The position numbers and the translations under genes are program-made. A stretch of DNA of 64,000 bases from Onthophagus taurus (taxonomy: Eukaryota > Arthropoda > Insecta > Coleoptera > Scarabaeidae), in the NCBI RefSeq assembly GCF_036711975.1, contig NC_091971.1:20653501-20717500 (forward strand), given 5' to 3'. Positions 6,280 through 32,807 of the stretch are shown here, piece by piece; the first letter of the stretch is position 1; the number at the start of each line of letters is the position of its first letter. The notes below the pieces were generated by a model, which searched no databases, was not told where the DNA came from, and saw only the letters and a program-made list of their open reading frames with translations.

Positions 6280-8010
6280 TCAAAATCATTTATTGAGAGA
6301 ATCGAAAAATGAAGACCCAAAATATTTCGAAAACTATTTAAGAATGGATGAGAAGAGCTTTTGTTTCATGGCATCTAGAGTATATAATCTGATTTCAAGG
6401 AAAAATACTCATCTGAGAAACAGCATAAGCGTTGAAGACTGCATTATTATAACCCAGATTTTTAACAACTGGTGAATCTTATTCCAGTTTGCAGTATAGT
6501 ACTCGCATACCTCAATACACTCTTTCGCTTATTATTCCAGAAACATGTGAGGCAATCTATGAATTTTTCAAAGTAAGAAATATTTATCTTAATTTAAAAA
6601 ACATTTGATATTTAATAAGAAAATTACTCGCTTACTAAGCTTTGCATGACTAAATTATTAATAACTGAAAAGTGGAATAATTGACAAGAAATAAATAATG
6701 CATAGAAAAATATATTATTGAATTTAAACGAAAAAAAAATGTACACATTGTTTTAAAAAGATCATAGTTCAATCATGGTGAAAACACATTATTATGGTTG
6801 ACTTTTGAAACCTTCGACATTAGTTGTTTGTATGGCTTGGCTAATTATGTCCATCGCTATTGGTGATGACAACATCGAATTAGAATTCTGACTTGATGCT
6901 ACTGACCATGCACATGAGTTTGACCTAGTTGTTTCATTAGAAATTGTTATGGGTGTAAGCTCGCCGATTGTGTCCCACATTTCCATTAACACATGTTGAA
7001 TTTTTCGTTTTGCCATCCTGACCATATAATTATTGCTGTTTTGTCGAATTGCTCATAGTTCTGATAACTATGAACTTGCTAAAAATCTCAAATTCATCTT
7101 CCTTTTCTAAGAATTGCCGCTTTTCAATTGCTTGCAATAGAGGTTTATCTACATTATCAGTACCGGTTTTTATTTTTTTCTTCGTGTTTGTTGACTGCGA
7201 TGTACTACGGTGTTTGGGTTCATCAAGATCATGTTGTAATGTATTGCCTTGAGGAATCTAAAATATAAACAGAATAATACATTGGCCTTGTACCATGACA
7301 TAACTGAACAAATTAGGTTGCATTTTTTTACAGGTCCCGACCACTTCAGAAGAATGGGAAAATTTTGCAAAGGAGTTTGAAATTCATTGGAATGCCTACA
7401 ACATCATAGGCGCAATGGATGGTAAACACATCCGCATTAAATGTCTCGAATCCATTGGTTCCCATTATTTCAATTACTATCATTTCAACAGTATCATAAT
7501 ATTTGCTTTGGAAGATGCAAATAATGGCAGAGTAGGCGATGCAAGAGTTTATGGAAAGAGTACATTGAAACAATATCTCAATGACACATCTTTTTTAAAT
7601 ATTCCAAAACACAAGAAACTGCCTAATACAAATATTGTGCTACCCTATGTTATACTTGCCGATGACGGATTTCCTCTAAGTTATAACGTCATGAAGCCTT
7701 ACCCGTTAAAGAATATTACTAAAGAAGAATGAGTTTTTAATTACAGACAGACTCGTGCAAGAAGGATGATAGAAAGTAGCTTTGGAATTCTCTCAACACG
7801 ATTCCGGGTGTTATTAACTACAATTAATTTGTCACCAAATAAAGTAAAGACCATTGTGCTAGCTGCTTGCACTTCACACAATCTGTTACTTACACAAAGA
7901 AAGTATCTATACACTACAACTGAACTACATACTGTTGAGGCAGATGGATGTCGATTTATGCAGCCAGTAAGTGTAGAAGAGTATCAGCAAATGGCACCTA
8001 TACAACAACA
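6280..8010 (+). pseudogene. Harbinger transposase (DDE_4 nuclease) pseudogene
   Basis: The N-terminal part is at about 6288-6575 (NEDPKYFENYLRMDEKSF, then, after a frameshift near 6462, LTTGESYSSLQYSTRIPQ and IPETCEAIYEFFK). A probable intron of about 750 bp follows. The catalytic part resumes near 7336 with SEEWENFAKEFE, then NIIGAMDGKHIRIKC and SHYFNYYHFNSI, the hallmark first-Asp region of HARBI1-like nucleases. DARVYGKSTL and the LPYVILADDGFPL block with the second Asp follow. An in-frame TGA near 7730 replaces a probable Arg codon before VFNYRQTRARRMIESSFGIL. The frameshift and nonsense codon make it non-functional. Confidence 0.8.
6790..7262 (-). pseudogene. Harbinger accessory protein, BESS-like C-terminal part
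   Basis: Minus-strand translation contains DKPLLQAIEKRQFLEKEDEF, then EIFSKFIVI, then MVRMAKRKIQHVLMEMWDTI. This resembles the 'DEFELFGKYIA...QRVLFE' segment at the C-terminus of MADF/BESS DNA-binding proteins encoded by Harbinger elements. A frame break separates the two halves near 7025. It lies antisense within the intron region of the nuclease gene. No MADF domain is visible in this copy, but a separate MADF-like fragment lies near 59.4 kb. Confidence 0.5.
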
Positions 8011-8529
8011 AATATCATTACATGCCTTCATTACAGCATTATGCCTATTTACAATTTGTACATTTTCTTCTTCATCGGATTGTACTTTTTGTGATATTTC
8101 TAAATTACATTGGGAATCATCAGGAATAATAGAAAGTGCAGCATACGAAATCAATCATTTCATTCAATTTCATACTTTTTTGAATCTGTAATAGACAAGA
8201 ACAGTTAATACCTATTTAAATTTGTATTTAAGACCTTTTTTTCAATAAATTTTCGTTTACTACAAGCAATAAAATAGAAATAAATTTATTCAAAATAAAT
8301 ATTATTCTTACCTTTGCTTTTTCAGCCAGATACTGACGTCTTAATCCGTTAGTTTTTTTCTCTTACATCTGTTGCTGTACAACCTTCAACAATTTCACTT
8401 ACAGCTAACTTACAAGCAAACGCTTATAGCCACAATATTTGGTGTATTACGCTGTAATATAATTCATCAAAGATATATGATGATAGATCTATGACATACA
8501 ACTATGATAGTGTGATACCGACCTAAGTC

Positions 8530-13851: not shown

Positions 13852-15085
13852 TTAAAATTCACCTAATGGATTGCCTACCCATGGGTAAGTATCTGGACAA
13901 TATGTACAAGTTTTCATGTAACGCAATTCTGTTCCTTTATACAAAGGACACAAAGTGTTTGAGCACGTAAGTGATTTCTCTGTGACAGTCGTAGCGAATT
14001 GGGCACTTGTGACTGGGTTAAACATCCAAGCTATTACTTGTTTATGATCCACAAAGAACACATCCGGGTAATCAACGCGAAGATCATCCATGAACGCTAA
14101 GAATCCTGGAAGGTTGTATTCGCTGAATGCAAACCAAGCAGCATTAATATTCAATGTGAGTGGAGCTTTGTTGTTATTGTAATGCCTTTTAAATTGTTCC
14201 ATTAACCAAGCTTTTACATCGTCGGCAGAATCAGCTCTAAAATTAATTTAAAAAATCAAATAAAAACTCTTCTATAATATATTTTTGTAGTCACTTACTG
14301 AATTGAGCAAGCTGCAATTGCGTTACATTCATTATTGGCCATATCAATAAGATCAATAATAGGTAATACCCAAGTTTTAGTGAAGGCATCAGCTGGGGTT
14401 GCTCCAATTTGGCTGGGTTGAGTTGCTTTGTAATGCAAACTGAATGGATATAATCTAGTATTACTCCTTAGTACCCAAGAATTATCATAGAGAATACCCG
14501 CTCGTTCATAGGCTCTGAATGTTCTGTCACCGTTAATTTCAAATCCTGGAGTACGACCACCTACGATTTCCTCAATTGGAATGCCAGCAAAGGCATTCAA
14601 AATCTCTCTTTGTCCAAAGAACTCATCGTACAAAGTATCTTCAGAAGCTTGCTTCCAATAATCGCTTTCGGGGTTCTTACTAATAGAATGAACACCGATA
14701 TCCATACCTTTGTTGTATAAATCAACTACTCTTGCATAATCGGAGTATTCGTGTGGAACATAGAAAGATGCACCAATTTGAACACCATCGCGGTTAGTGC
14801 GTTTTAAAATCTCAACTAAATAAGTAGTATAAATTACATCGGTAACAGCATCATTGAAAGCCAAGGTAATCAACTAAAATTTAAAGAGAAACCTTAGAAT
14901 AAAGTGGAGAACCTATAGTTGCAAGAACTTACTTGCGGAACATCCGCGAGGGTAATTGGAGGTGTGGAGCCTGAACATCTGCATGTATCTTCAATTTTAC
15001 AAACTGCTGAGGAACATGGTTCCGCAGCACGTGTATCTGCGGAAACAGCTGCAATTATACAAGCTATCAACAGATGCACCTTCAT
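13852..15085 (-). CDS. Chitin-deacetylase-like secreted protein, gene A
   Basis: Exons are 14933-15085, 14299-14873 and 13852-14236, joined by GTAAGT/AG introns (phase 0, then phase 2), giving 370 residues. The start is the Met that opens a signal peptide (MKVHLLIACIIAAVSA). A short Cys segment follows (C-x4-C-x5-C-x-C), then one CE4 domain of about 300 residues with no chitin-binding, LDLa or other domain. CE4 motifs: 1, A56-F-N58-D59-A; 2, H113-S-I-S-K117; 3, R158-T-P; 4, Y-D181-N-S-W; 5, W219-V-L-P. In classical chitin deacetylases motif 1 is TFDD and motif 2 HSxxH, so the catalytic-base Asp is Asn and the second metal His is Lys here. This paralogue also lacks the Cys pair seen in B, C and D just before motif 5 (QPSQIGATP against QPCQIGVCP). 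It ends at NPLGEF with no acidic tail. The role is probably extracellular chitin binding or modification in the gut; activity is uncertain. Confidence 0.9.
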
Positions 15086-15136
15086 CGTTTTAGAACTTCG
15101 AAGTACTACTATACTTTCTTATACGAACCGAGCTGA

Positions 15137-15144
15137 TATATATA
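15137..15144 (-). promoter_or_regulatory. TATA box of CDA-like gene A
   Basis: TATATATA on the minus strand, 52 bp upstream of the ATG at 15085. This resembles the TATA-to-ATG spacing in genes B, C and D. Confidence 0.55.
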
Positions 15145-15159
15145 CGGTCTAACAATAAG

Positions 15160-16040
15160 ATTACGCTGATTTAAAACCACTCAAGGAAATACACTCTACA
15201 TATTAAGATAAAAAAAAATTACAACAAAAATAAAGTGGCTAAATAATTCAAAATTAAAATCAAACTTTAATACAAAAATTATTAATATACCGACAATTTA
15301 ATTGCTTAATCTTGTATAAACAAGAATATATAATTATAACCTAGTTTTTTTTTGGTTTTTTTTATCAAATTTCTTATCTAAATCTCATCTTAATCAAATT
15401 CGATTCTTGGAACTGATGTTTATTTTTCAATTACATTTGGAGAGTCATACAGATAACATGTTCAAACCGGCGCGGCACGGCGTTTTAATCGAATTGGAAA
15501 CGTTAACAGATCAATATCTGTACAACAAAACAATTTTATATTTAATAAATTTAAGTGAATTCAATTAAAATTATATTGGAAGAGGGTGAAAAAAGATGAA
15601 TAATAAAATGAAATTTATTTAATTATGTCAATCTCGAAAAGAATTTAATAATAGAAAACGGGGCGATATAAAACGCACTTAAAACGTCATGTAAAAAAAT
15701 GACCGGGACAAAATAAAATTGTCGTAAAAGGCGCCAATAAACCTCAAAGAGAATTTTTATTAACAAGTTTCTTAAAACGGCTTTGTCATCAAATGTAAAT
15801 TAACCAAAAAAAGTTATTTGATAAAAGTATTTTTTAAATCAATTCTGTGGGGTATAAATAATGTTCTTCCGTATGCGGTTTGGTCACGTGAGAGCGGTTC
15901 TTTAGGTGGTCTTTAAAATGGTCGATAAAATTTAGTTGGTGGCGGGTTCAAAATTAATGTCATTGCCGCCTACCACGTTTATACGGAACTAGTGTAAACG
16001 TGCAACGAGCTGAAATGTTCTGAAATCACGTGATAATCTT
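15160..16040. other. AT-rich intergenic DNA upstream of gene A
   Basis: No gene recognised. This stretch would contain any distal regulatory sequence of gene A; I see no clear motif array. Confidence 0.4.
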
Positions 16041-16042
16041 TG

Positions 16043-16090
16043 TACTGTAAAACCGCGATATAACGGACTTCGGATATAACGAACAAAATA
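16043..16090 (+). repeat. Pogo/Tigger-like terminal sequence (left)
   Basis: TACTGTAAAACCGCGATATAACGG-like, followed by ACTTCGGATATAACG. This is the familiar 'CAGTAAAACCTCGATATAACGGAC' end of Tigger/pogo-type elements. A diverged inverted partner lies at 22025-22075. Confidence 0.45.
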
Positions 16091-16254
16091 TTTTTAAGTC
16101 ATATTATTAATATTATCTATTTAATACATCAGTATATTTAAATATAAACGTTATCGTTCATAGATAGAATCCAACTCGGGTTATTCCCCAAGTTGCTTTA
16201 TTCCATGTTCATAGATAAACTTGATTGATTTGTAGATCAAGGACGGTAGTTGTA

Positions 16255-16620
16255 GTTTTAATTGTTATTTAGCGCTAGATTGTTGTATATTTTTACTGAA
16301 TTAAAAGTAAAACTATCACTAGACCTAGAATTAGAAATATTCGGGTTTTCGGGTCTTAAGAGAGGAACAGCTATATTTCTAGTTCTAGGTCTAATGTTAG
16401 TTCTAGTTTTAATTGTTATTCAGCACTAGATTATTGTATATTTTTATTGAACTAACGTCTCTTAAGACAGCTAAACCTGAATGCTTCTAGTTCTGGGTCT
16501 AGTGTTAGTTCTAATTTTAGCTGTTATTCAGCGTTAGATTATTATATTTTTCATTGAATAAAAACTAGAATTAACACGAGACGTAGAACTAGAAACATTC
16601 GGGCTTCGCCGTCTTAAGAG
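16255..16620. repeat. Array of palindromic 'CTAGTTCTAGGTCTAGTG' repeats
   Basis: Three units of about 120-150 bp. Each is built as an inverted repeat: CTAGTTCTAGGTCTAGTG and TTAGTTCTAGTTTTAATTG on one side, then about 45 bp containing TTATTCAGCGCTAGATTGTT, then AACTAAAACTAGAAC- and CCTAGAACTAGAA-type sequence on the other. TCTTAAGA-type boundaries punctuate the units. Similar units recur at 21.71-22.01 kb and a trace at 38.62 kb. Confidence 0.65.
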
Positions 16621-17391
16621 CCGTATGTCTCTTACACCGTGTTTTCATTAGTAGGATTAGTGGTAGAGTATATTGGGTAAGTACCAACTATCTTGTGAAT
16701 TATAGCCTAATGAAAACGTAAGTGGTAGGGTAGAGCAGTTGGTTGTAGTAGAGTAAAGTGATATAGCACCGTGATAAAGTTACTCTACATGGTGAATCAG
16801 AAAGAATGGAAAATCCGAATACCGGAGACACTTGACTTTTCTGATTTCAAAGGTAATAATAACAACAAAATTTTAAATAAAATAAATGTCTACTTTGCTA
16901 ATATAGTGGCTGAAAATACTATACAAGCAAATGTACAGAACACTGTTAAATCGAATATTTGGACTCTACTTAATAGATCACATAGAAGTAAAATCAATTT
17001 TATGTCTTTGAATAATGCAAACACACATGCAGTGGGTTATGATGAACTTCCAGTCTCTGTTCTAAAAAAATGCGTTGATGAAATTAGAGAACCCAATTTC
17101 TGAATTCAATTCAGCAATATTTCCGATGAAAAGAAAACTATAGTAATACCAATTTATAAGAAAGAAAATAAATCAGATTTTACACATTATCGACCAATTG
17201 CACTAAATCCTCATTTTGAGAAGCTTGTCCTGAAAAGACTAAAAATTGCGTTACCAAGAACCAAATACTTAACCAGTCCCAAGACAGTTATATAAAAGGC
17301 AGATCTGTAACCAGAGCAGTTTTCCAGTTATTAGAACGAATTCAAACTGGAATTAATAACAACGATCTTACCAGTTGTATAATGATGGACC

Positions 17392-19106
17392 CAGAGCTGG
17401 ACAGTACCCGGGTAAAAATACTCAAAAATGAAGGAATCGATTGGAATCAATTGTACTCTGTACCCGGTTCGTTAAATACTCTCTATTAGTACACAATATC
17501 CGCATCGCATATTCGAGTAGATTATTCTCGGATACTTGAACAAGTTTGAGCTTGTCTGAATTTGCAGAGTTTACTCGCCGCTCAGCGCTCAAACAAGTTT
17601 GTGTTTCTTTCGTCTTATTAGTTTATTACTTATTGAAGTAACATTGAAAAGTGCAAAAACGCTCCGATGCTGGACGGAACATTTTTCTTGGTTGAAACGA
17701 GTGGCAAGAATTCGCATGTCGAAGCTCTATGCCAGTTATGTCTTCCTTTAAAAAAGATTATTAAGGACTCGCCGAAAGTACGATAAATTTTGTTAAGCAC
17801 CTAAAAAGAGTGCATGGAAACAAATCCTACGATGACTATCTCAAACATATAGAAAAATTAAAAGACAGCAAAAGCAAGGAGGAGTTTGAAAAAAGAATAG
17901 TGTATTTCTAAGGTTGTTTGATGGAATGAACGTTAATAATTCTCATATAGAGAATCTTAAAAAAGAGTTTCAAAAGTAGGACTATGCTTGTAGTGCCGCT
18001 GACATATGGTCCACTACAACATGAAGTTTCATGGGTGTTACATTGCACTGGATAGACGCAAACTTGGAGAGAAAGTCAACAGCTTTAGCTTGCAAAAGAT
18101 TTAAATACACCTGACAATAGAATAATAATGCTACCAGCGCATATTCGATGTGCCAATCATACGTTAAATTTAATTTCCCCTACCGATTGCAAAAATGCAA
18201 TTCAATCAAATGTTACACTAAGAACGAGTATCTTATGGGCAAAATCAGGTAGACTCAAAACTGCTAAAATAATGAAAGTGGTTTTGGGACATACTCTAAG
18301 TTATCCAGGATTAACAAGATGGAATTCCTATTTTGATTCGGTTTCTCAGATCTTGAATGTAAAAGCAAAACGTCCGTCTCTTTGCCAGCGGCTTAACATT
18401 AAAAATTTTCGGGCGTTAACACTCGACGTTTTGGATACTTACTGTCGAGTCTTCTTTCTCTACGAAATAAATGGGAAAAATTAAAGCTCCAGTGTATGAG
18501 TTCCAATGGCGAATACCGACATACTTAATTTGACATCAGAGTCAAATGAAAGTCAGAGTAATTATTTCTGCAATTGTTCATCCCAAATTTAATTTGCGAT
18601 GGTTATTGTTTTAAAAACGCCGAAATGTTCTCTGGACGCTATGAAAAAGTTGGTAATCGGAGCTGCGCAGGAACTTATATCTATTGACGATGATGGAAGC
18701 GGATATGGAGGTTCTAGCGATAGAACACCATCTGATGACTTCCTTGATTTTAATGAACCCGAAACTAACACGTTATGAATACCTCTCAACCTGTCACTGA
18801 AAAGAAAGCAGTAAAAACATCAAAAATTGAGCTAGAGCTATACGACGATTACCCAATAATAAAAAAGGCCAATAAAGTAACGCAATGAGATAACACTTAT
18901 TAGCTGGTAGTTTTAGGATTCCTTTTTTTTGTTTTGTTTTGAAGTTATTCTTTAACATTAACTAAATAACTAACTTAAATTAATTATTTTTGTAGAATAT
19001 TTTATTTATGTTGTTTTTGCATAAACCAAACATAAATTTTAGCCAAATGTACTTTTTAAAATTACCCGAAAAGTGCAGGTACTTGAACTCCGGGTACTGT
19101 ACTCTG
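17392..19106 (+). mobile_element. hAT-like DNA transposon nested in a retrotransposon
   Basis: It begins CAGAGCTGGACAGTACCCGG. The right end, inverted, begins CAGAGTACAGTACCCGG, so these are imperfect TIRs with the CAGAG start typical of hAT. Inside is a decayed BED zinc-finger hAT transposase. It splits the reverse transcriptase reading of copy 1 exactly between 'CIMMD' and 'SVHHDILL'. Flanking 8-mers (GATGGACC and AGTGTCCA) do not match, and about six codons expected between them (LSKAFD) are missing, so the insertion site seems to have suffered a small deletion. Confidence 0.75.
17645..18890 (+). pseudogene. hAT transposase with BED zinc finger, pseudogene
   Basis: The N-terminal BED finger is visible: HVEALCQLCLP with the CxxC, then NFVKHLKRVHGNKSYDDYLK with the H-x4-H. 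Further on are WSTTT-stop-SFMGVTLHWIDANLERK (near 18010-18080) and IRCANHTLNLISPTDCKNA plus YPGLTRWNSYFDSVSQIL (18140-18355), the hallmark blocks of hAT transposases. Several frameshifts and stops are present and the C-terminal dimerisation region is not recognisable. It is dead. Confidence 0.75.
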
Positions 19107-19787
19107 AGTGTCCACCATGACATCTTATTGAAGAAGTTGAAAGCTATAGGGATACGAGGACTTCCTCTGGAGTGGTTCAGATCTTACTTGTCAGAAAGAG
19201 AACAGCGGGTGGTATCGTATGATGAAACTGGTGCTGAAGTTACTTCAGACTGGACAAAAGTTTTGTGAGGCGTCTCACAGGGATCAATATTGGGACCTTT
19301 CCTCTTTATCCTATACATCAATAATCTTCCAGAAGTGATAGAGGATCTACTAATCCTTCTGCTGATAACTTCACTGCAGTATTAACTACAAAAACTGAGA
19401 TACAAATGTCAGAATTGATTCGGGTCAATCTAGGTAAACTGCAAACTTGGTTTTCAAATAACAACTTACAAAAAAAACGTTATAACAATAGGTACTCTTA
19501 CAAAAAAGAAAACGAATTAGATCTAATATTCAATGGTACAAAACTTACTTGCAGGGAAGAGGTTGTGTTTCTGGGGGTTAAGATTGATCATCATCTTTCA
19601 AGGAAACAACATATTAACGATCTTACCATGAAGATAAATAAATCGTGTTACGCGCTATGGACTATTTCGCGGTTGGTGAGTGTGAATGTAGCTTTAAGTG
19701 CGTATTACGCATGCGTTGAGTCGCGCCTAGTGTTATATCGCGTATTCATAGCCCAAAAGAAGTGTATCAGGGCAGTATTTGGAAAAA

Positions 19788-21282
19788 TTGTGAAATATTT
19801 GCAAAACGTACAATATATCGGCCGTTTTCCGGATGAGTTGAAAAAGACAGTAATAATCCCAATCTATAAAAAAGGAGACAAGTCGATACTATGATAAGTA
19901 TCGTCCAATAGCACTCATATCGAATCTTGCAAAAATTTATGAGAAGCTTATACACAACAGAATTATAAATTATTTAAACAAATATAATATATTGCACGAG
20001 AATTAAAATGGTTTTCGGAAGGGAAGATCCACCGAACTTGCGATGTTTCAACTGTTGGAAAATATTATCTTGGGATTAAATGGAAAACAGACCACAACAG
20101 TATTGTTCGTGGATCTTACAAAGGTTTTTAGTAGTGTACATAATTCAATCCTTTTGGCCAAGTTGGAGACTGTTGGCTTTAGAGGTGTTAGGTGCTCATA
20201 GATGAAATCCTATCTATCAGGAGGTTACAATATGTAGTTGCCCACAATGAACAGGAAACAGAAATAAGATCAGCTTGGAGGGAAGTCAAGCTGGGAGTAC
20301 CTCAGGATTCCATATTGAGTCCTCTATTATTCCTCCTGGGAATGACCTACCACGAGTAACGAACAACATTACGATAATGTTTGCGGATGATACAACGACT
20401 GTGGCGAGGTGTAGCACTGATGATAAAATCCAGAATTCACTTACTGTGGCTCTGAATAAACTTGCGTATTGGTTTGAAGCGCATAACATAAAGTTAAGTA
20501 CAAAAAAACGAAAATTGTTGATTATCACTTATGCCCTGACCAGATGACGGTGAGGTATCGGGATAGTGAGATTGCCAGTGTTGAAGAGATTTCGTTTCTA
20601 GGTTGGTAAATGAATCCTGGATTGTCTTGGACCAATCATATTGATTTCCTTGCTGGCAAGATCAGTAATTTCTCATATGCCATTCGGATTATTTCCAGAT
20701 CAGTTGGCATTGAGGCAGCATTAAATACCTATGTTCATTCCTTGCTAAGATATAGAGTTGTCTTTTGGGGCCGTGGTGTTGGTATAGATAGAATCTTCAT
20801 ACAGAAGAGGTGTGTGAGAGCAATCTTTGGTCTAAAAGATACTGATAGCTGTAGAAGTTACTTTAAAGACTATAAAATACCTACCTTGTATGAAATTTAT
20901 ATTCTGAAATGTGCCGTATTGGTTAGGAAGAATTACTTTACATTTTTCAAAAAGTATGAAATATCACATCCTCGAGACACACGCGGGAAGATGAACTGCT
21001 GTCTGGTGCCACCAAAAACGCACCTTACTAAGATTCAGAAGACGGCTCTGTACCAGTATCAAGATCTACAATCACATTTCGGAAGGTACAAGGATCTTGC
21101 CAAATCCAAGATTCCGGAGAAAACTGAGAGATATTGTCACGGAAAATCCGATATATACCATTGACATGTTTTTCCAATTTAATGTTTGAATTCAATTTGT
21201 ATTATATTACAATGTAATTATTGTTAAATTGACGCACTCTATGCTTTTTTATAAAATGCAGGAATAAAGTATTATTATTATC
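19788..21282 (+). pseudogene. Non-LTR retrotransposon remnant, copy 2
   Basis: Same family as copy 1 and directly abutting it. The order is GRFPDELKKTVIIPIYKKGD, KYRPIALISNLAKIYEKLI, NGFRKGRSTELAMFQLLENI, LFVDLTKVFSSVHNSILLAK (motif A), then a frame-disturbed motif B, then IMFADDTTTVARCSTDDKIQ (motif C, FADD), FLAGKISNFSYAIRIISRS, IFIQKRCVRAIFGLKDTDSC and the C-terminal tail to 21164. It ends near an ATTATTATT run at 21270-21282, the usual microsatellite tail. Several frameshifts are present. Confidence 0.75.
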
Positions 21283-21708
21283 TTTTTCTTGTTAAGTTTT
21301 CTGTGCTTTGGACCGATTTAACCTAACATCTCTTATACAAATGTCCGTGGTTTTCGAGGCACACTTGTTTTGTGATTGCTCGTAGAGGGCGCTAGATACT
21401 CCTGCTCGTTTGATAAATCAAGTCATGATTATTTTGTCAGTTGAGGTATGGTGAATTAGAACCACAAATCCGGAAGAGCTTTTAATTCTACACAAAAAGG
21501 TAGTCTTGCTTAAATTGTCTAAGTCTACTGGTTTCCAAGTTATCTGCTATTAATTGTTTCAAAGTAATTTTTTTTAAGTTAACATTTAAAATCATTATCA
21601 CACAGTAACTATAATAATCGATAACAATAACAATTAATTAATAACAATAGAATTTAAAGTAAATTTCACATTTTACAATTCGCTTCTATTCGTACGCAAG
21701 CCCGAATA

Positions 21709-22016
21709 TGTCTAGTTGTAGGTCTAGTGTTGGATCTAGTTTTAGTTGTTATTCAGTAAATAACGCTATATAATCTTAGGGTACGACTAGAAAATCTAGA
21801 GTTTAGAATTAAGAATTATTTAGAGAGCCACTGCGCGTTGATGGGTAGAATATAATATATTGATATTCTTTTTAATGTTACATAGTAACGTCTTAAGAAA
21901 TGTACTCTGTAAACCCGAATGCTTCTAGTTCTAGGTCTACTGTTAGTTCTTATTTTAATTGTTATTCAGTGTTAGATTGTTGTATATTTTTCATTGAACT
22001 AAAACTATAACTATTT
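21709..22016. repeat. Second array of palindromic CTAGTTCTAGGTCTA repeats
   Basis: Contains TCTAGTTGTAGGTCTAGTG, then TTCTAGTTCTAGGTCTACTG and the internal GTTATTCAGTGTTAGATTGT and CATTGAACTAAAACTATAAC. These are the same units as at 16.26-16.62 kb. Together they bracket the retrotransposon pair. Confidence 0.6.
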
Positions 22017-22024
22017 TTGGCTAT

Positions 22025-22075
22025 AACGGACTCTCCTTTCCCCGTATTCATCCGTGATATCCAGAGTTTACTGTA
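22025..22075 (-). repeat. Pogo/Tigger-like terminal sequence (right, diverged)
   Basis: The inverted sequence starts TACAGTAAACTCTGGATATC and includes a GTCCGTTATAGCC block. It resembles the left end at 16043 but is more diverged. Confidence 0.35.
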
Positions 22076-22169
22076 TTTTTAATAGCAATTTAGGACTTAA
22101 AACAAAGACATTTTAAGATATAGTTTTTAAGAGATTTATTAATATTTTAATAAAATGGGTTTATATTAA

Positions 22170-23503
22170 TTACGGATTTTCGGGATCAACTGGTTCTTCA
22201 GTTGGTTCCTCAGTTGGTTCTTCAGTTGGTTCTTCAGTTGGTTCTTCAGTTGGTTCTTCAGTGGGTTCTTCAGTTTCTCCTAATGGGTTACCAACCCATG
22301 GATATTCATCGGGACAAGTAGCAACGCACACCCTCATATATCTGGTTTCTTCTCCATGGAGTAGAGGACACGTTTTACTTTCACATTCGGCATTTCTTTC
22401 GGATGTATTGGGAACGTATTCACCGAGAGGTTGAGGATTTTTAGACCAAGCTAATAATTGTTGATGAGAAATAAAGTACACATCATCCATTCCGTGAAGT
22501 TGGTCGAGGAAATCAATGAATCCTTGTTCATTGTAATCTCCAGCCAAAAACCAAGCTGAATTAATGGTTAATGTCATTGGAGATTTATTTCCTTCATAAT
22601 GACTATTGAATTGTCCCATCAACCAATTAGTAACATCAGCTGCCGATTCAGCTCTAAATTTATTTAAAATTTATTAATAATTATGGTTTAAAAATGTTTT
22701 TTTAACTTACTCAACTACGCATCCAAGAAGAGAATTACATTGGTTATCGTTGGTGCCAGTAAGATCAATAATTGGAAGTACCCACGTTCCAGGGAAAGAT
22801 TCTTTTGGACATTTACCAATAAGGCATGGTTGTTCAGATAAACAATCTAATGAATACGGAAAATAGCGATTGTTGGAGTGAGCAGTCCAAGAATTATCAT
22901 ACTGGATACCAGCTTGTTGGTATGCTTCAAAGGTGATGTCTCCGTTTAATTCTAAATTAGGTGTTCTAGCACCAATTACATCTTCAATTGGAATGTTGGC
23001 AAACTTCGAGCAAATTTGTCTTTGGCCGTAGAATTCGTCGTAAAGTAATTGCGCATCGGCTTCTTGCCAATAACTGGATAATGGGTTCTTAGTGATAGAA
23101 TGAACGGCTATTTCAAAGCCTAAATTGTAAAGGTTGTTCACTTTTTCGTAATCGGTGTATTCGTGTGGTACGAAGAATGTAACTCCGATTCTACTTCCGT
23201 CGGGGTTTGTGCGACCGAAAAGATGTGGTTCCAAGTATTGATTGTAAATTCCATCGGTAACAGCATCGTTATAAGCTAAGATAATGAACTAAATCGAAAT
23301 ATTTTTGATATCTATTTATTAGTAAACTTTTTAATTTTTCTACGTACTTGAGGAGTTTCTTCAACCGGTAATGGTGATTTCTTTTCAGCACATCTACATC
23401 CTTCAGCGGCGAGACAATTATCTTCTTGATGACACGTCTCGGCGATTTTTTGATTCGCCAACGCGCCGACGACCGCACAAAATAATATAATGGTAGCCTT
23501 CAT
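22170..23503 (-). CDS. Chitin-deacetylase-like secreted protein, gene B, with Glu/Pro/Thr tail
   Basis: Exons are 23348-23503, 22711-23288 and 22170-22653, with intron phases identical to gene A, giving 405 residues. The chosen Met opens the signal peptide MKATIILFCAVVGALA. An in-frame ATG 39 bp upstream is rejected because it lies only 14 bp from the TATA box. An N-terminal Cys segment is followed by a single CE4 domain: motif 1 A57-Y-N59-D60-A, motif 2 H115-S-I-T-K119, motif 3 RTP, motif 4 YDNSW, motif 5 TWVLPIIDL. As in its paralogues, the base Asp is Asn and the second His is Lys. The Cys pair before motif 5 is present (QPCLIGKCP). After the shared NPLGE ending the protein continues with six EEPT tetrads and EEPVDPENP. 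Such acidic, potentially O-glycosylated tails fit a mucin-rich gut matrix. A polyadenylation signal lies about 35-40 bp downstream (TTTATT on the plus strand near 22135). Confidence 0.9.
22185..22275 (-). repeat. 12-bp coding minisatellite (EEPT)n in gene B
   Basis: Near-identical 12-bp units (plus strand GGTTCTTCAGTT) encode the repeated Glu-Glu-Pro-Thr. Low divergence between units suggests recent slippage and likely length polymorphism. Confidence 0.85.
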
Positions 23504-23555
23504 TTCTAAGTCACTTACTGAGCATCGAACGTTAGTTCTCATCTATTTATCTAAG

Positions 23556-23563
23556 TTTTTATA
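23556..23563 (-). promoter_or_regulatory. TATA box of CDA-like gene B
   Basis: TATAAAAA on the minus strand, 53 bp upstream of the chosen ATG. It supports transcription starting downstream of the alternative ATG at 23542. Confidence 0.6.
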
Positions 23564-23809
23564 ATAGAAAAAACTGTGAAATAAACACTTCAAAAATATT
23601 TTTTCTAAGATAAGAAAAATAAGTAATACATCAAACCTCGTGCGAATGATTGCGGTTTGATAACAAATAATCCATTATATTTTTATGAATTAAACTACTT
23701 CAAGTTTATTCTAGGAAGATTAAAATAAAAAAATTTCAATTCAGCTTTATATATTTTTGTGTATAATTATATTTTATTATGAAATAAAATAAAAATGCAA
23801 TAAAATCTT

Positions 23810-25055
23810 CTAACAATTATTAGATGCCTCGGTGATTATTTCTCCTAAAGGATTTCCAACCCATGGATACATAGCAGGACAGACAGTACAACTCCTCATA
23901 TACCTTATCTCGTCACCTTTCTGCAACTCACACATAATTGGTGAACAAGATGCGCTATCATTAGGAGGAGGTCTAGAGTATCTGTTAAAAGGAACTGGGT
24001 TTGCATTCCAATCTTGGACTTCTTTATGGGAAACCATGTAAACGTCTTCATATTTTTCTAATTCGGTTAGAAACAGTTTGAAACCTTTATAGTTATGCTC
24101 GCCTACTTCAAAGAAATTCGCATCAATGTTCAATGTTATTGGAGCCCTTTGGTAAGTGTAATGTCTTTGAAATTGTTCCATAAGCCAATTCTTCACGTCT
24201 TCAGGACTTTCAGCACTAAAAGAAAATACATTGGAAAATGTATTAAGCATTTCTTTTGGACTTACTCTGTTATGCAAGTAGATAAAGCATTGCAGACAGC
24301 TCCCGTTTTACTAACATGGTCAATCATGGGAAGTACCCACATCCCCGGAAAAGAACCAGTAGGACAAACACCAATTGGACACATTTGTAGAGATTTATAG
24401 TCTAAGGTGTATGGGAAAAAACGGTTATAATGTACAGTAGGCCATGAATTATCATATAGAATTCCAGATTTTTTATAAGCACTAAATGTTGTATCTCCAT
24501 TAATAGCCAAATTTGGCGTTCTTGCACCCACGATCTTTTCAAATGGAATATTTGCAAATTTAGAAATCAAAATTCTTTGGCCATTAAATTCTTCAACAAG
24601 TGTATCTTCGTTAGCTTCTTGCCAATAACTTGTCAAAGGGTTTCTACTAATGGAATGTACAGCTATTTCAGCACCACTGTTATACAAACGATTTACAAGG
24701 TCATAATCGGTGTATTCATGAGGTATGTAAAATGTTGCTCCAACTTTAGAACCATCGGCATTTTTGAAATCTAGTAAATATTTATAATAAAAGTGATAAT
24801 TTCGTTCATTTATTGCTTCGTTAAAGGCCAATGTTACAAACTAAAAAGAAGAGTTAATATCGATAGTTATTTTAGAAAATCGATGATTATTACCTGCGGT
24901 GTTTGACTTTGATCAATCGGTGAATCCCAAGAACTACATTTGCAACCATCTGTAATTAAACAGTTGGTTAAAGAGCATCGTTCAGCTTCAGATTGTTCAG
25001 AATACGAAACGGCTAGAGTAGCCAAAAGTACAATTATTGCAATGAACGACTTCAT
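23810..25055 (-). CDS. Chitin-deacetylase-like secreted protein, gene C
   Basis: Exons are 24894-25055, 24266-24840 and 23810-24215, with the same intron phases, giving 380 residues. The signal peptide is MKSFIAIIVLLATLAVSYS; the Cys segment is C-x4-C-x5-C-x-C. The CE4 domain has motif 1 A59-F-N61-E62-A, motif 2 H116-S-I-S-R120, motif 3 RTP, motif 4 YDNSW and motif 5 MWVLPMIDH. It departs furthest from the enzyme consensus: beyond the Asn and Arg shared in type with its siblings, the metal-binding Asp of motif 1 is Glu. The Cys pair (QMCPIGVCP) is intact. It ends NPLGEIITEASNNC, a short tail with a terminal Cys and no repeats. It sits about 270 bp downstream... that is, on the 5' side of gene B in the shared transcription direction, the tightest spacing in the array. 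AATAAA-type signals follow the stop (plus strand about 23773-23778). Confidence 0.9.
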
Positions 25056-25084
25056 TATGCTATTTGATGTCCAAAAAGTAACTG

Positions 25085-25092
25085 TTTTTATA
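25085..25092 (-). promoter_or_regulatory. TATA box of CDA-like gene C
   Basis: TATAAAAA on the minus strand, 30 bp upstream of the ATG at 25055. Transcription would start very close to the ATG, giving a very short leader. Confidence 0.6.
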
Positions 25093-25099
25093 CTCGGAT

Positions 25100-26055
25100 A
25101 ACCGACAAAGATGTTATCAAGAGGATATTAAATTTATAAGATGGAGTTTTTATCGCATATTACCATCCAATTAAATTATAGCATGAGAATGGGAAATCAC
25201 TTATTGATGTGTTCATCTTTATTAAAAAATAAATGGGATTAAATTTGTTGTTAGTATGGAACGAAATTAAGTGTGTCAATTAAAGTGCGCAAAAAGATAG
25301 TAAATTCACTAGTAATAGAATTAAAAATAGTTTACAAAACTAACGATTAATTTATATCTGGCTTAAATCACTAAAGGTTAACGGAAACTAAGATATTTTC
25401 CACTGAATCACTTAGTGTTATGCCATTGAACAAGGTCAAATGGTTTTATCCATTTAAGTCGTCTACTGATATTCCACACGTTAAGGGGGTAGCCACCTTA
25501 GCGTACATTTGTCCTAAAGATTATTTTCTTCTTCTGTAGCTAATCCGTTTGAAAATAAGCTTCTATGAGCTTCTGTAGCCCGGTCATGGAGCGTTCAGCT
25601 TGGACAATGCGATGTGAGTACGTTTTGTGGCAAAATTTAAGCACAATCTTCCAATTGTTAATTTTAGTACTTGCATTATTTACATAATACTTGTAAGATC
25701 ATCATTAAAATTGCAAGGAGCAATATCGGACATAATGCCAACTATTTTCTTGCCACTATGAATTGTTTTTTGGTGCTATAGATCATAAAACAGCGTTGTA
25801 ACTTTAAGTGCTGTTATTTTTACTTTTAATACATTTTACCTTTTTTAACAGTAAGGTCAGAATTTCCTGAGACCCCCTTACGACATACCGTTGAAGAAGT
25901 CTGAAGTTGACGTAGTTTTGAAATCTCCTTTAATGATAAGAATCAATTGAATCTAATTACTGGAGATTAATTTGAAAAGTAGAAGTTTACTCTTCTTTAT
26001 TTATTAGCGCTGATTTATTTTGTAATACGCTCAAGGCCGTATTGGCACGGCAGTA
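25100..26055. other. AT-rich intergenic DNA upstream of gene C
   Basis: No coding or repeat structure recognised apart from the edge of the retrotransposon tail at about 26060. Confidence 0.4.
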
Positions 26056-26057
26056 TG

Positions 26058-28410
26058 ATTTTAATAATAATAATAATTTATTTAATCACCTGGCTACAAA
26101 TAGTAGATGTGACAAGTTCAAACCACATACAATATATAATACACAACATACATAATATTCAACAAAGAAAGAGAGAGAATAAATTATGAAGTATGACCTA
26201 TGTTAGTTGACTAGGACTAATATTAAAATTAAATGACAAGTATTTCTGGCGGTCGTAGAACGCCCTTTCTACAAGCATCATTTTTACTTTATGTTTAAAT
26301 GAGCTAAGCGTATCAGCTTTTATAATTGCAGATGGCAAATTATTATAGAGCTTTGGGAAATCATATTGTAGACTCTTTTCAAAGAAAGCCGTATTATGAT
26401 GACCCAAGCACACCAAACTGTCAGATCTTATAATGCGCTTCTGCGCAACAAAGGCATGCCGCCACTCCGTCGATTTTCCCCACAATAATATATTGTACGA
26501 GAGATGCGAATAACAAAGAGCATAATACGCATCTAATAATCCCGATAGCGGCAGACATCCCTTCAATTTCAGAATTGCATAAAAGGAAGAGTTCAATTTC
26601 AAAACCAGATGATCAAGATGTTTGTTAAAACTTGGCCGCTCGTCTAGATAAACACCCAAAAACTTGCAGCTATTCGACAAAATGATATCACCGGCCTGCA
26701 GAGGCATTCTCCTCTTATGAAAATTTACAAACACGGTCTTCTTTAGATTAAGAACAATACGATTTTGTTTGCACCAAGCATCAAATGACTCAACGGTATG
26801 CTTGACTTTAGATAAAAGCATATCAGCATCATTCGACGCCAGGGCAATTGACGTATCATCGGCATACATGACTATGAGGACATCGGAAAGACACTCAGGA
26901 AGATCATTTATATACAATAGAAAAATTAATGGGGTCAAGACATTTGATTCCGATGACTCCTGACCAGAGAGGACCACTTTTATTTTTCGTTCCTCCAGAA
27001 ATGACTGAAGTTTAAAATCATGCCTCGCAAACCCAAAGCATACAATTTCTGTATGATGTACACTAGTGGTAGTGAATCAAACGCACGCGACATGTCGAAG
27101 AACAGACCCACAGCGAAATCCCCTTTATCCAGGTTGTCGTAGATGAACTCAATAAAATTCAATGACACAGTCTCTGTAGATTACTAACAACATTAAACCT
27201 GTCCAGAAAACTCAAAATTCGCACCGAGACGATGTTTTCAAATATCTTTGAAAAAACACTAGTTATCGCTATTGGTCTGAAATTGTTGACATTTGTAGGA
27301 TCACCAGCCTTGAAAGCTGGAACGACCCGAGAAATTTTCAACGCCCTGGGAAAGATTCCAGAACGAACAGAAAAATTAAATACATGTTTAAGGGGCTCGA
27401 CCAGACAAGACGCTACATACTTAATTACACTCAACCGATGCCATCGCAACCCGTCGAACGTACGTTTTTTAATCGCTTGATAGCCGCTAGAATTTCTTCG
27501 GAGGATATGGTATAAAAAAATATTCTATTGGGTACAGAGCTACCAACCGTGCAAGATACATCTCTCATTGTGCCATAAATCAACTCTACCTTCTCCTCAA
27601 CAGATGTTGTGAAAAACGTTGAAAATGTTGAGCAGATCTGCGCAGTGTCGCTAATCATGTGACCATCATCCGAACGCAACAGAAAACTAGTTTGCTTTCT
27701 TCCTTTACCCATTTGGTTATTTACACAATGCCACACTGCGCGACTTCTATTCGATAACTCAATTATTTGTTTACTAGTATGGTTCTTTTTAGTTTCATTA
27801 ATTAGTTTTCTATATGAATCCTTCTTAACATTAGGTATACAAGTTACGTAACTCCGGAGAACCGTTGCTCATAATCCAAAACATGTCTTTAAACTCCCTG
27901 CCAGCACTTATTATATCATTTGTAATTCAGGGAGCTCTATTACAACCACCATTCAGTAAAACATAAATACATTCAAAAAACGGTCATAAGAGTCGGATTG
28001 AACATTTAAACAGAAATCCGACCAATCATAATCACGTAATTGCAAATATAACTTAGCAAGATTCGAATTTGACAACACACGGCGCCACTATCTCCACATC
28101 AATTACCGGCTCAAAAAGAACCTCGAGCGAACAAGCCATGTGATCCGCTATAATAGGATCAAAAACGGTAAGTATGCAGAAACGCGCCGGTAAATTAGTA
28201 AATATATAATCCAATGTTGAATTGGCTTTGCGGTCGCTCGTTTGACCGTGTACCAAATGAGCTCAAAATATTTTTCAAAAGATCGGATTCCTTATTGAAT
28301 TTATTAATGTCAATGTTAAAATCACCGCATAGAACAATGTTTTGGAATTTTAAGAGTAAAGAACAAAGTAACGCAGACAGGCTAGCAACAAACGCCTATA
28401 GACACAATAG
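26058..28410 (-). mobile_element. Non-LTR retrotransposon (endonuclease + reverse transcriptase), frameshifted
   Basis: Read on the minus strand from about 28400: endonuclease blocks NIVLCGDFNIDINKFNK and DYIFTNLPARF, then IADHMACSLEV. Reverse transcriptase follows: RSDDGHMISDTAQICSTF, IFPRALKISRVVPAFKAGD, NNFRPIAITSVFSKIFENIV, then FDMSRAFDSLP (motif A). Around 26970 motif B is partly deleted. YADDTSIALASNDADMLLSK (motif C) follows, then a long intact stretch to 26198 ending LPSAIIKADTLSSFKHKVKM. The 3' tail is an (ATT)n run at 26062-26078. The 5' end is truncated, with no ORF1 seen. It lies between CDA-like genes C and D in the same orientation as the genes. Confidence 0.8.
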
Positions 28411-28439
28411 ACTATAGATAGATCTTTATTACATCTTTA

Positions 28440-30225
28440 GCCATAAATTTAACACGTGCGGCACATACTTCAAACGACATTTCCGATGAAAAACTGTCAA
28501 CATTGATTAACGATCGATATGGTCAACCCGTTTCTGGCAAGTATTAAGGACCCTCCGTGGGATCTTACAGAACGAAAATAGCCAGTTACAAAATCATAAT
28601 GACGCATGTTTATGACATCACGCGCTACTGTCACGCTACTTTGATTGTAGTATTTGAAGAAATAAGGAAGGAATAATAAAATCTACTGTATCCGAATTCT
28701 TCTTAAGTTACCCTATCTAAGTGTTTGAATTGATGTGCAATCTTTTGGATTTAATTGAAATAAAATTAAGTATTTTATTCCACATAACACTAGTTATAAA
28801 TTTACAGTTATGTAACTGCTGAATGTAATGGTTTTTGAAATGAGATAGTAATTAAGTAGTAAACACGTAGTATTAAGTAGTGTGAGTGAACGAACTGAGT
28901 TAAGCGTGGTCAGCATTTGAACGTTAATAAAGACTGAATGAACAAAATTAATAGCTAGAAATAGATTTTGTTAATTAACCATATATTTCACTTACCCTTA
29001 GAAAGAAGGGAAGATTTCATGGCGATCCTGCCAACGATTCCGATTAAGAATAATTGAAGTATTGAAAATAATAAAACTTTATTAAACAGAAAGATGGTAT
29101 ACAAGAACCAACTAAACGAAAACCAAGCAGAAGAAGTGATGGGTTCAACAAATACCAAAGAACCAGGAAAGAAGTATGGATTACACAATATTGTGATGCA
29201 TGTATATTTGTGCAAAATGGTGCTTAGAAGCCAAGATCATGAGAGAAATCGTAAGAAGCCGAGATGTGTAATGTTGAAAAATGTAATACAAATCTTATTA
29301 AGGACAGTAAATTCAGCTTATTTTATACCAGAAAATTTAATGATAGACATGAGATTACACCTGTTAATTAAAAAATCTGCAGCATCCATTCAATTGCATA
29401 ATTCTAAACAGTAGAGGAATTGATGGTGAATTTAACAATTTATCAAGCCAATGGTGATCCATACTAAAGTATACCAGTGTTCCTTTTCTGCACAGAGCAC
29501 ATTTGTAAACAAAGTTTTTACCACACGTTTAATAATTTAATGTTATTCATCTTATGTGCAAGACGAACTAGTAATCTGCCTATTAAAGCTATGTAATGTG
29601 AATGTTACTCCGCTCCACGGTAAAATTCTTTTCTAAAGCTAATCATTTCACATCCACTTGTGATCGAGCTGTACGTTGATACCAGACGATTTTTCTATTG
29701 TGAAGAAGCGTAGTAAAGCTATTCCATTATTTAGTTCTGGTTAAAAAAAAATAAGAAAATCTACCAACATTCCTACGTTCAGTCTGGTTTTACCCGGTGA
29801 GTATTTCTCAATTTAAAGATTGTTTATGTCTCTGTTTAAAATAACACTACGGAATACAAAAACAGAAATTCACATACTGTTGGAAATTAATTTATTTTAT
29901 GAGATATGCAACAACAATAAAATTAAAACGTAGGCAAAAGGCGACGTTCAGATGAGATGGTTGCTTAGACTCGACAACTCTTCGACAAAAAATTGCATAT
30001 GCCAATACTCTCCGATTAATTTTATTTGACCACTCAATTTCATCCAGTTTTTATACAAACCCCATGTACTCATTTTGCACGCTATGTATCCTTGCTGCTG
30101 TTGCAGCAATTAAATAAGGGTCGTATATCACATGGTACCCAGTACAAGACGCCCATATAGGTCCATTCAAGGGTCGTACATACGAAATATACATTTCAGA
30201 GATAGTGTAATATCTACGTTAGTAC
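28440..30225. other. AT-rich intergenic DNA
   Basis: Short open frames around 28990-29410 are on opposite strands over the same bases and show no domain, so I do not call them. No repeats stand out. Confidence 0.4.
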
Positions 30226-30229
30226 GCTT

Positions 30230-30960
30230 CATTGACTTTGGTTTCGAGTGTTATTTAGAGAGCTGTAAAACAAAGTGCCGGTAATTTTCTGAATCTGGTC
30301 CATCCATTGCGTAGGCGAGTATCTTCTGGACCTTCGTCCCTCTACGTTTTCCGATACTACGATGTACCTCCATGTTATTATCATCTGTTCGGGTAATGTG
30401 TCCAAAAAACCTCAGGATATTTACAAAACAAATAGATGATTGTTCTGGATGTTTAATTCGCTAAGGATTGATTCTTTAGATCTGAACCATATTTAAAACG
30501 CATCAATACTCTTACTGTCCGCTGCGTTAGTTGTCCACGTTTCAGCCCGCCCCATATTGGAGAAGATTAGCGTTTGAAGTAGTTCCATTTTAGTATTTTT
30601 TGTAATTGAGTGGTCTTTCCAGATCTTAAATAGTCTACTCATTGCACTTTTATTTTTTGCCAGTTCCTTCTTCGAATGTCTCTCTCACTTGAATCTGTTT
30701 TATCAATATACGAGTCTACGTACACATCTAGTCTACGACTTGAAATCTGTGTGGGGCATCCGTTAGTTGCAGAACATCAGAACTATCAACGATCATAATT
30801 TTGGTGTCTGGGCTCTGGTTTCAGTCTCAACTCGGTTTAGAAGGTCCACCATTTCCTCTTCTTATACAGTTATCAAAATTGTATCGTTGGCATATCTCAG
30901 AGTGAAGTCTCTAGGTTGAATGATATTGTTAGAAAACAGTTATTTATAACAAAGTCTGGC
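30230..30960 (-). pseudogene. RTE-like reverse transcriptase C-terminal remnant
   Basis: Minus-strand text reads LRYANDTILITV (motif C, with YADD changed to YAND), EEEMVDLLNRVETRAQTPKL, then SRLFKIWKDHSITKNTKMEL, then GRAETWTTNAADSKSIDAF, and finally FLGHITRTDDNNMEVHRSIG. This order and wording is typical of the 3' half of insect RTE-type elements. Stops and frameshifts are frequent. Confidence 0.6.
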
Positions 30961-31262
30961 AGGAGGAACATTATCTTTAAGTTCCAAGCTTAGCAAGTCG
31001 ACTCTACGAAAATTTTTCGTAAAACTAAAATAATTGTTATTCACCACCAAACCACAAAACTTTGTTTTAATTTGTTTAAAAAGTCATTATTCAAAAAAAC
31101 ACAACACGTTGTAATTAGTCTTAACGGTATCAAATTGAATGTCATGTTTTTAAAATAAAAAATGCAATAACAACAACATCCATTATTCAACAACTTGTTT
31201 ATTTATATAGTAATTTGATTATAATATTTATTTATATACAGATTATCTCATATTTAAAAATA

Positions 31263-32807
31263 TCATTTAATAAAAATAACTAACAACCACTGTTTAATGT
31301 TCGAATAATCACTAGATATATCAACTGGTGATACAGATGGATTAATCGGCTGAACAGCTGGTTTATTAGTAAATTCTTGTTGTGGTTCAGTGGTTTCTTC
31401 AGTTGGTGCATCCGTTGGTGTATCCGTTGGTTCATCTGTTGGTGCATCTGTTGGTTCATCTGTTGGTTCATCTGTAGGTTCATCTGTTGGTTCATCTGTT
31501 GGTTCATCTGTAGGTTCATCTGTTGGTTCATCTGTAGGTTCATCAGTAGGTTCAGGTTCTTTTTCGCCCAAAGGATTTCCAACCCAAGGATATACTTCTG
31601 GACACGCAGAACAACTCTTCATGTATCTTCGTTCTTCGTCTTTTACTAATTCACATACCACCGGAGAACAAGAGGCGCTATTATCGGTGGAGGTTCTAAT
31701 GTATTCACCCAAAGGAACAGGATTAGCACTCCAATCTCGAACTTCTTTATGGGAAACCACGAAAACGTCGTTGAAATTTTTTAATTCATCAAGGAACGCT
31801 TCGAAACCTGGATAATTGAATTCGCTGATTTCAAAGAAAGCTGAGTTAACGTTGAATGTAATCGGTGATCTTTCACTTGAATAATGTCTTTCGAATTGTT
31901 CCAAGAGCCAATTTTTGACGTCGTCTGGACTTTCAGCACTAAAAAAGGATTAAGTTAATTACCTTATTAAATTATTGCATTAAACAATTTTCGACTTACT
32001 TTATAGAACATCCAGCAAGGGCATTACATTGATGCGAATTTGAATCAACCTGAGATATCATCGGAAGCACCCACATTCCAGGAAAAGATTCAGTTGGACA
32101 AACACCAATTTGACATGGTTGCTGAGATTTAAAATCTAAAGTGTAAGGGAAATAACGATCAGTACTTAAAGCACTCCACGAATTATCGTATTCAATTCCA
32201 GATCTTTTGTAAGCACTGAATGTGGTATCTCCGTTTATTGCTAAATTTGGTGTTCTCGCTCCGATGATATCATCAATTGGAATGTTGGCGAATTGAGAAA
32301 CCACAATTCTTTGTCCATTGAATTCATCGAAGAGCAAATCTTCAGAAGCTTCTTGCCAATAACTCGTCAGAGGATTTTTACTAATTGAATGTACAGCTAT
32401 TTCAAAATTGTTATTATATAAATTATTCACGCGTTCGTAATCGGTATATTCATGTGGTACGTAAAATGTTGCTCCAATTTGAGTACCATCAGCATTTGTT
32501 CGACCTACCAATAATGGGTTGAGGTATGTTTCGTAAATCGCATTTGTTACAGCGTCGTTAAATGCTAACGTAACGAACTTGAAATAAATATTTAAAAGAA
32601 AAGTTATTGGAGATAATTAATAATAAAGTTAAGTTGATAATCAATTACCTGCGGTGTTTGTTCTTTTTCAATTGGTGAATCCATGGAACTGCATTGGCAA
32701 CCGTTTTCGATCAAACAAACGGTCGAAGTACATTGTTCAGCAGCGAATGGATAGGGATATGAGAAGGCTAAAGAAGCCAAAAGTACAATTGAAAGGAAGT
32801 ATTTCAT
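31263..32807 (-). CDS. Chitin-deacetylase-like secreted protein, gene D, with long Pro/Thr/Asp tail
   Basis: Exons are 32649-32807, 32000-32577 and 31263-31938, with the same intron phases as the others, giving 470 residues. The signal peptide is MKYFLSIVLLASLAFS; the Cys segment follows. CE4 motifs: A58-F-N60-D61-A, H116-S-I-S-K120, RTP, YDNSW and MWVLPM. Sequence is closest to gene C by eye (both share QTPQFVTLAFN and PHEYTDY). The usual ending NPLGE is extended by about 100 residues. Thirteen Pro-Thr-acidic tetrads (mostly PTDE, later PTDA/PTDT/PTEE) come first, then a Pro/Ser/Val-rich stretch, then a hydrophobic end (QWLLVIFIK) that might matter for anchoring but is too short to call. Ser/Thr-rich acidic repeats are typical of mucin-like, O-glycosylated matrix proteins. 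TTTATT signals lie about 60 bp downstream of the stop. Confidence 0.9.
31386..31561 (-). repeat. 12-bp coding minisatellite (PTDE)n in gene D
   Basis: Units such as GGTTCATCTGTT and GGTTCATCTGTAG-type variants (plus strand), repeated about 13 times, encode Pro-Thr-Asp-Glu. The unit is related to that in gene B (GGTTCTTCAGTT), but the acidic residue differs. Confidence 0.85.

Follow-up and report, generated by a model that had tools for sequence, protein, structure and literature searches.

Do the products of a cluster of chitin deacetylase-like genes in the scarab beetle Onthophagus taurus still act as enzymes? The genes, here called g1 to g4, lie in a window of 64,000 nucleotides (G000:C6:20653501-20717500) taken from a 290.8-Mb assembly of 33 contigs, and an initial annotation had described them as four tandem chitin deacetylase (CDA) copies altered at two positions of the CE4 catalytic site. 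In this work we have compared the four proteins with solved insect enzymes and with the other CDA genes of the same genome. Judged by their residues, g1-g4 very probably lack CE4 deacetylase activity. Our best explanation as a whole, which we hold with a little more than even confidence, is that they are tandem-duplicated, catalytically dead CE4-only proteins which act non-enzymatically in the gut or the peritrophic matrix.

Results

Catalytic residues of the four proteins

The four genes are present as predicted, head to tail on the minus strand at positions 13852..32807 of the window, each with three exons, two short GT-AG introns (50-71 bp), an intact frame and, as assessed by eye, an N-terminal hydrophobic leader (Table 1). 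The proteins were aligned with the BmCDA8 and BmCDA1 chains of Bombyx mori, and positions are given in BmCDA8 numbering. In the alignment, all 16 of the residues named in PMC6463723 that were checked fall at their published numbers (10 of BmCDA8 and 6 of BmCDA1, with BmCDA1 Tyr242 outside the check); the BmCDA8 numbers D62, R162, D244 and H282 were assigned here through alignment to named BmCDA1 residues and through the motifs. The roles of the base, the zinc ligands and the Arg are those described in PMC6463723, where the catalytic-mutant control was the BmCDA1 base mutant D205S, and the acid His of motif 5, with the motif-4 Asp that tethers and tunes it, is described in PMC6415152.

The base D62 is Asn in all four proteins. 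The zinc ligand H117 and the motif-3 R162 are retained throughout, the ligand D63 is retained in g1, g2 and g4 and is Glu in g3, and the third ligand, H121, is replaced by Lys in g1, g2 and g4 and by Arg in g3, which makes the pair 63/121 D-K in three of the proteins and E-R in the other. The motif-4 D244 has become Ala, Leu, Ser and Ala in g1, g2, g3 and g4, respectively, and the motif-5 H282 has become Asn, Asn, Asp and Asn. Four of the seven catalytic residues (D62, H121, D244 and H282) are thus lost in every protein, and the Asp-His-His zinc triad is incomplete in each. The changes in motifs 1 and 2 which the initial annotation described hold in all four copies, but its account was incomplete, as D244 and H282 are gone as well. 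It had also listed RTP, YDNSW and WVLP as kept; all three are found in each protein, but YDNSW is not motif 4, which as published starts at S241 in BmCDA8 (PMC6463723). Because the base, the acid and the full zinc triad are missing, CE4-type amide hydrolysis would not be expected.

Could exons outside these gene models restore the canonical motifs? None were found in the window, where a tblastn search with the products of g1-g4 (E up to 1) returned the four loci and two matches at chance level (42864-42727, E 0.18, and 22802-22894, E 0.78). In contrast, a CDA gene on contig C8 has two similar TFDD exons in succession, apparently mutually exclusive alternatives. No further relatives of g1-g4 were detected by tblastn at E 0.01 within 20 kb of either end of the window.

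Family membership

In searches against solved structures, g4 matched BmCDA8 best (5Z34, E 1.2e-76) and then BmCDA1, and g1 gave the same order, with BmCDA8 at E 9.9e-62. BmCDA8 and BmCDA1 (5ZNS/5ZNT) were the only structural-database relatives of these two queries at E < 0.001. The homology of g2 and g3 to insect CE4 enzymes was established by alignment over the whole domain. Against PF01522 of Pfam (curated cut-off 23.1 bits), g1, g3 and g4 scored 13.4, 21.7 and 12.0 bits, all below the cut-off, and g2 gave no match at E up to 1, whereas a canonical CE4-only gene on contig C1 (L003) reached 32.2 bits. No chitin-binding or LDLa domain was found in g1-g4 by Pfam at E up to 1 (g4 without its last 99 residues). 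Group V insect CDAs likewise have a CE4 domain without these two (PMC9961250, PMC6480692, PMC2817921), and g1-g4 are CE4-only CDA-like proteins, probably of the group V type. In the hemimetabolous insects surveyed, group V is reported to be missing (PMC9632012). We found no relatives of g4 exon 2 in phage records and none in the viral and prokaryotic contigs scanned.

The proteins share 48-65% identity with one another over the aligned domain and 34-41% with BmCDA8 over the aligned length. Like them, BmCDA8 is a CE4-only secreted protein with the WVGNPLG terminus, but it is an active zinc enzyme with seven of seven catalytic residues, of which g3 retains two and g1, g2 and g4 retain three. Nine of the 12 non-catalytic Cys common to both Bombyx enzymes are present in all of g1-g4. 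Of the named subsite and cleft residues of BmCDA8, all four genes have substitutions at Q125, F238, S241, F247, F248 and F347 and retain Y361 alone. We considered loss of the BmCDA8 aromatic claw as a trait specific to the cluster and dropped it: the canonical C1 gene also lacks the same six residues, F238, F248 and F347 among them, with a gap at 247.

Two of the proteins end in acidic, Thr/Pro-rich tails encoded by tandem repeats (Table 1), TEEP in g2 and TDEP in g4, and no such arrays occur in g1 or g3. The g2 product also matches the PT disordered repeat of Pfam at 29.5 bits.

Other CDA genes of the genome

Two whole-assembly protein searches gave at least 25 and at least 23 exon-level matches. 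One of these relatives is the C1 gene, which is intact at all seven catalytic positions and 45% identical to BmCDA8. It shares with g1-g4 the hydrophobic leader, the lack of a Pfam chitin-binding or LDLa domain and the positions and phases of two introns, one directly following the PQ codons (phase 0), the other just past motif 4 (phase 2), which correspond to introns 1 and 2 of the cluster. It differs in its catalytic residues, in its five-exon model and in having no second copy within the surrounding 9 kb of sequence. Since this gene is canonical and shares these introns, the loss in g1-g4 belongs to their subfamily. The concern of the initial annotation, that the substitutions might be standard for the insect gut group, does not hold for group V as a whole: five motifs are reported in all silkworm CDAs (PMC6480692), activity is reported for BmCDA8 in vitro (PMC6463723) and for yeast-produced BmCDA7 (PMC3958831), and the C1 gene is canonical.

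On contig C6 itself a CDA1-like gene is canonical at the seven catalytic positions, with H121 falling at an exon join. Within about 35 kb of it are two CDA2-like coding stretches, possibly separate genes and possibly alternative exons. They resemble g1-g4 as CE4 proteins with changed catalytic motifs, but here the base, the metal Asp and the first His are altered, and motif 4 keeps its Asp and motif 5 its acid His. Two further CDA genes, seen in part, carry changes of their own (Table 1). As the motifs of these genes are altered by differing substitutions, catalytic residues have been lost more than once in the family. A frameshifted exon-3 fragment of the g1-g4 subfamily lies on contig C7, with motif 5 still reading NINA. 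Along 527 bp its DNA is 80% identical to that of g1; the match takes in intron 2, so the fragment was copied as DNA.

Phylogeny and selection

In trees rooted using insect CDAs only, g1-g4 form one clade with an ultrafast bootstrap of 100 and a stem that is 0.93-0.98 substitutions per site long. The C1 gene joins them at 73-75, and together they are set apart from CDA1/CDA2 at 100, with a single named group V sequence in the tree. The branching order inside the clade is weak (54-88) and varies between trees. On the simplest reading of these sequences, the losses common to g1-g4 would predate the duplications.

The ratio of nonsynonymous to synonymous substitution (dN/dS, Nei-Gojobori) is 0.21-0.25 in four of the six pairs and dS is saturated in the other two; the finite dS values, at 1.1-2.2, are near saturation, which makes the ratios rough. 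A ratio of about 0.2 fits purifying selection and not decay. Among 140 columns shared by BmCDA8 and BmCDA1, 54 are retained in all of g1-g4 and 41 in none. The catalytic set has not been lost significantly faster than this background (4/7 versus 37/133, Fisher p = 0.19) and gives no sign of special targeting. This null result leaves the claim of inactivity intact, as a working enzyme is expected to lose none of these residues.

Surroundings of the cluster

Transposable-element remnants, some recognised by eye, lie between and around the four genes. Those with coordinates are listed in Table 1.

Table 1. Features of the window and CDA-related loci elsewhere in the assembly (window coordinates unless a contig is given)
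Feature	Position	Strand	Description
g1, CE4-like gene	13852..15085	-	exons 15085-14933, 14873-14299, 14236-13852; introns 59 and 62 bp, GT-AG (gene model); 370 aa; motifs AFND / HSISK / RTP / CNAIA / LNINAAWF (residue alignment)
g2, CE4-like gene	22170..23503	-	exons 23503-23348, 23288-22711, 22653-22170; 405 aa; motifs AYND / HSITK / RTP / CNSLL / LTINSAWF; acidic (TEEP)n tail
g3, CE4-like gene	23810..25055	-	exons 25055-24894, 24840-24266, 24215-23810; 380 aa; motifs AFNE / HSISR / RTP / CNALS / LNIDANFF (residue alignment)
g4, CE4-like gene	31263..32807	-	exons 32807-32649, 32577-32000, 31938-31263; 470 aa; motifs AFND / HSISK / RTP / CNALA / FNVNSAFF; acidic (TDEP)n tail
g2 tail array	22191-22275		12-bp tandem repeat, 7.1 copies, codes TEEP
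g4 tail array	31402-31554		12-bp tandem repeat, 12.8 copies, codes TDEP
L003, CE4-only gene	contig C1		hydrophobic leader, five-exon model, 383 aa; motifs LTFDD, HSISH, RVP, CAMVD, YIHAAWF
L018, CDA1-like gene	C6, ~350 kb from cluster		89-92% identity to BmCDA1 in two stretches
L015, CDA2-like coding stretch	G000:C6:20341661-20342668		TFNG, FSITH in place of TFDD, HSITH
L016, CDA2-like coding stretch	G000:C6:20348031-20349038		TFNG, FSITH in place of TFDD, HSITH
L001, CDA gene	G000:C8 ~3547000-3548600		two similar successive TFDD exons
L029, CDA gene, partial view	G000:C11:32841288-32842186		TFDG; ETIS versus HSIT of BmCDA1
L020, CDA gene, partial view	G000:C5:6096558-6097401		motif-5 His to K (HFK), motif-4 Asp to N
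L022/L037, fragment of g1-g4 subfamily	G000:C7:35269250-35269629		frameshifted exon 3
LINE-type (long interspersed nuclear element) element	54271-56847	+	859-aa frame, RVT_1 E 2.7e-29, weak endonuclease match
DDE transposase remnant	7304-8188	+	two adjacent frames, under Pfam cut-off
Reverse transcriptase remnant	26201-27076	-	above Pfam cut-off
Second reverse transcriptase remnant	61100-61501	-	under Pfam cut-off

Discussion

How could such a cluster have arisen, and what might its products do? We suggest that g1-g4 are tandem duplicates of a CE4-only gene and that catalysis had already been lost in their common ancestor: Asn stands for the general base and Lys or Arg for one of the three zinc ligands, and both the acid His and its motif-4 Asp are gone. 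The proteins would be secreted into the gut and would retain the barrel fold. They would hold no zinc, and an ion pair between Lys/Arg and Asp/Glu may occupy the metal site. Instead of deacetylating, they would have a non-enzymatic function in the peritrophic matrix or the gut lumen, binding chitin or other partners in the matrix, and the acidic tails of g2 and g4 would be an added disordered extension. Of the roles that remain, binding through the fold is the likeliest, and chitin itself may be bound. The moth relative TnPM-P42 binds chitin and is located in the peritrophic membrane (PMC3958831). Expression of Tribolium CDA6-9 is reported to be confined to the gut (PMC2817921), and knock-down of moth group V genes changes the peritrophic matrix (PMC11719712). 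The initial annotation had suggested selection for a chitin-binding fold with weak or no deacetylation; of this, the loss of deacetylation under continued constraint is supported by the loss of base, acid, motif-4 Asp and metal ligand together with the dN/dS values.

Several observations weigh against this proposal. The covariation of D-K with E-R is a single event, so that the ion-pair idea rests on one change. Structure prediction from an alignment of exon-wise translations of the window was poor (mean predicted local distance difference test score, pLDDT, 49.5), which leaves homology as the basis for the fold. Six of the seven BmCDA8 subsite and cleft residues are altered, which weakens the case for binding through the known cleft. 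We had also considered that the pocket might be under stronger constraint than the remainder of the protein, and this was unsupported: columns within three places of six catalytic residues are no more invariant among g1-g4 than the others (15/33 versus 105/282, p = 0.45; 315 gap-free columns from BmCDA8 residue 58, tails cut). Gut expression would be carried over from other insects, and RNA interference (RNAi) against Tribolium CDA3 to CDA9 is reported to cause no developmental defect (PMC9961250, PMC7177437). Lastly, in nematode homologues the first His of motif 2 is Asn and Trp takes the place of the motif-5 His, yet in-gel deacetylation of glycol chitin is seen with extracts of C. elegans, with the active band not assigned to one protein (PMC3396651).

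Given this activity in extracts of worms with altered homologues, motif changes alone do not prove inactivity. Might g1-g4 then still be catalytic through a rewired site, with another set of metal ligands or another acetyl ester as substrate? The nematode case lends this some weight, as do the retention of D63 (Glu in g3), H117 and R162 and the likeness of the altered residues across g1-g4 at every position except 244. However, the nematode homologues retain (T/S)FDD (PMC3396651), and the joint loss of base and acid in g1-g4 makes a stronger case for inactivity. With base, acid and motif-4 Asp absent, Lys or Arg at a metal-ligand position and no substitute residues apparent, nothing that we found supports the rewired active site which the initial annotation had also offered, and we regard it as very unlikely. 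Decay under relaxed selection appears, if anything, slightly less likely still. The long stem branch of the clade and the frameshifted fragment on C7 would fit it, but the four open frames with their hydrophobic leaders, the GT-AG splice sites and a dN/dS near 0.2 where it can be measured argue against it.

Along the lines of the proposed partnership of CDA2 with CDA1, g1-g4 might be inactive partners which bind and regulate or position the canonical C1 enzyme. The genome does hold such an intact CE4-only gene, and the altered CDA2-like stretches near the canonical CDA1-like gene show that altered and intact paralogues coexist. Against this, the C1 gene is on a different contig from the cluster, and a ratio of four dead copies to a single active gene would be odd; we consider such a partnership unlikely. 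Perhaps g1-g4 go further and constitute a CE4 family of lectins or regulators derived from a duplicated gut deacetylase, in which an ion pair has taken the place of zinc and the pocket binds chitin or controls the single canonical group V enzyme. The inactive chi-lectins of family GH18 are a proposed parallel. This idea is tentative, and on balance rather improbable.

Dead CE4 proteins are already known, and g1-g4 are not a new kind. EcCDA (2VYO) and Ba0150 (4M1B) have the CE4 fold but have lost catalytic residues and are reported to be probably inactive or inert (PMC10967932); they differ in coming from other organisms, and EcCDA additionally lacks both motif-2 His and the motif-3 Arg. One paper also makes the case that residues outside motifs 1-3 are missing from group V and that the group may have no activity (PMC11719712). 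The natural comparison is with Tribolium castaneum CDA6-9 (NP_001103905, NP_001104012, NP_001103906 and NP_001103904, as given in PMC9632012), group V gut genes which resemble g1-g4 in number and in their CE4-only type, and the loss of catalytic residues may be shared by beetle CDA6-9. For the particular motif combination of g1-g4, in a clade of four genes beside a canonical paralogue, we met no report in the literature covered, nor did it give catalytic residues for Tribolium CDA6-9; most subscription work, including the original Tribolium study, lies outside that coverage, so this is no proof of absence.

If the proposed non-enzymatic role of g1-g4 is correct, counts of insect 'chitin deacetylase' genes give too high a figure for the enzymes, and studies by RNAi or with inhibitors which treat group V genes as enzymes would need a prior check of the catalytic residues. 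A dead four-gene clade together with an intact paralogue in one genome would also offer a comparison for what the CE4 fold does when catalysis is taken away.

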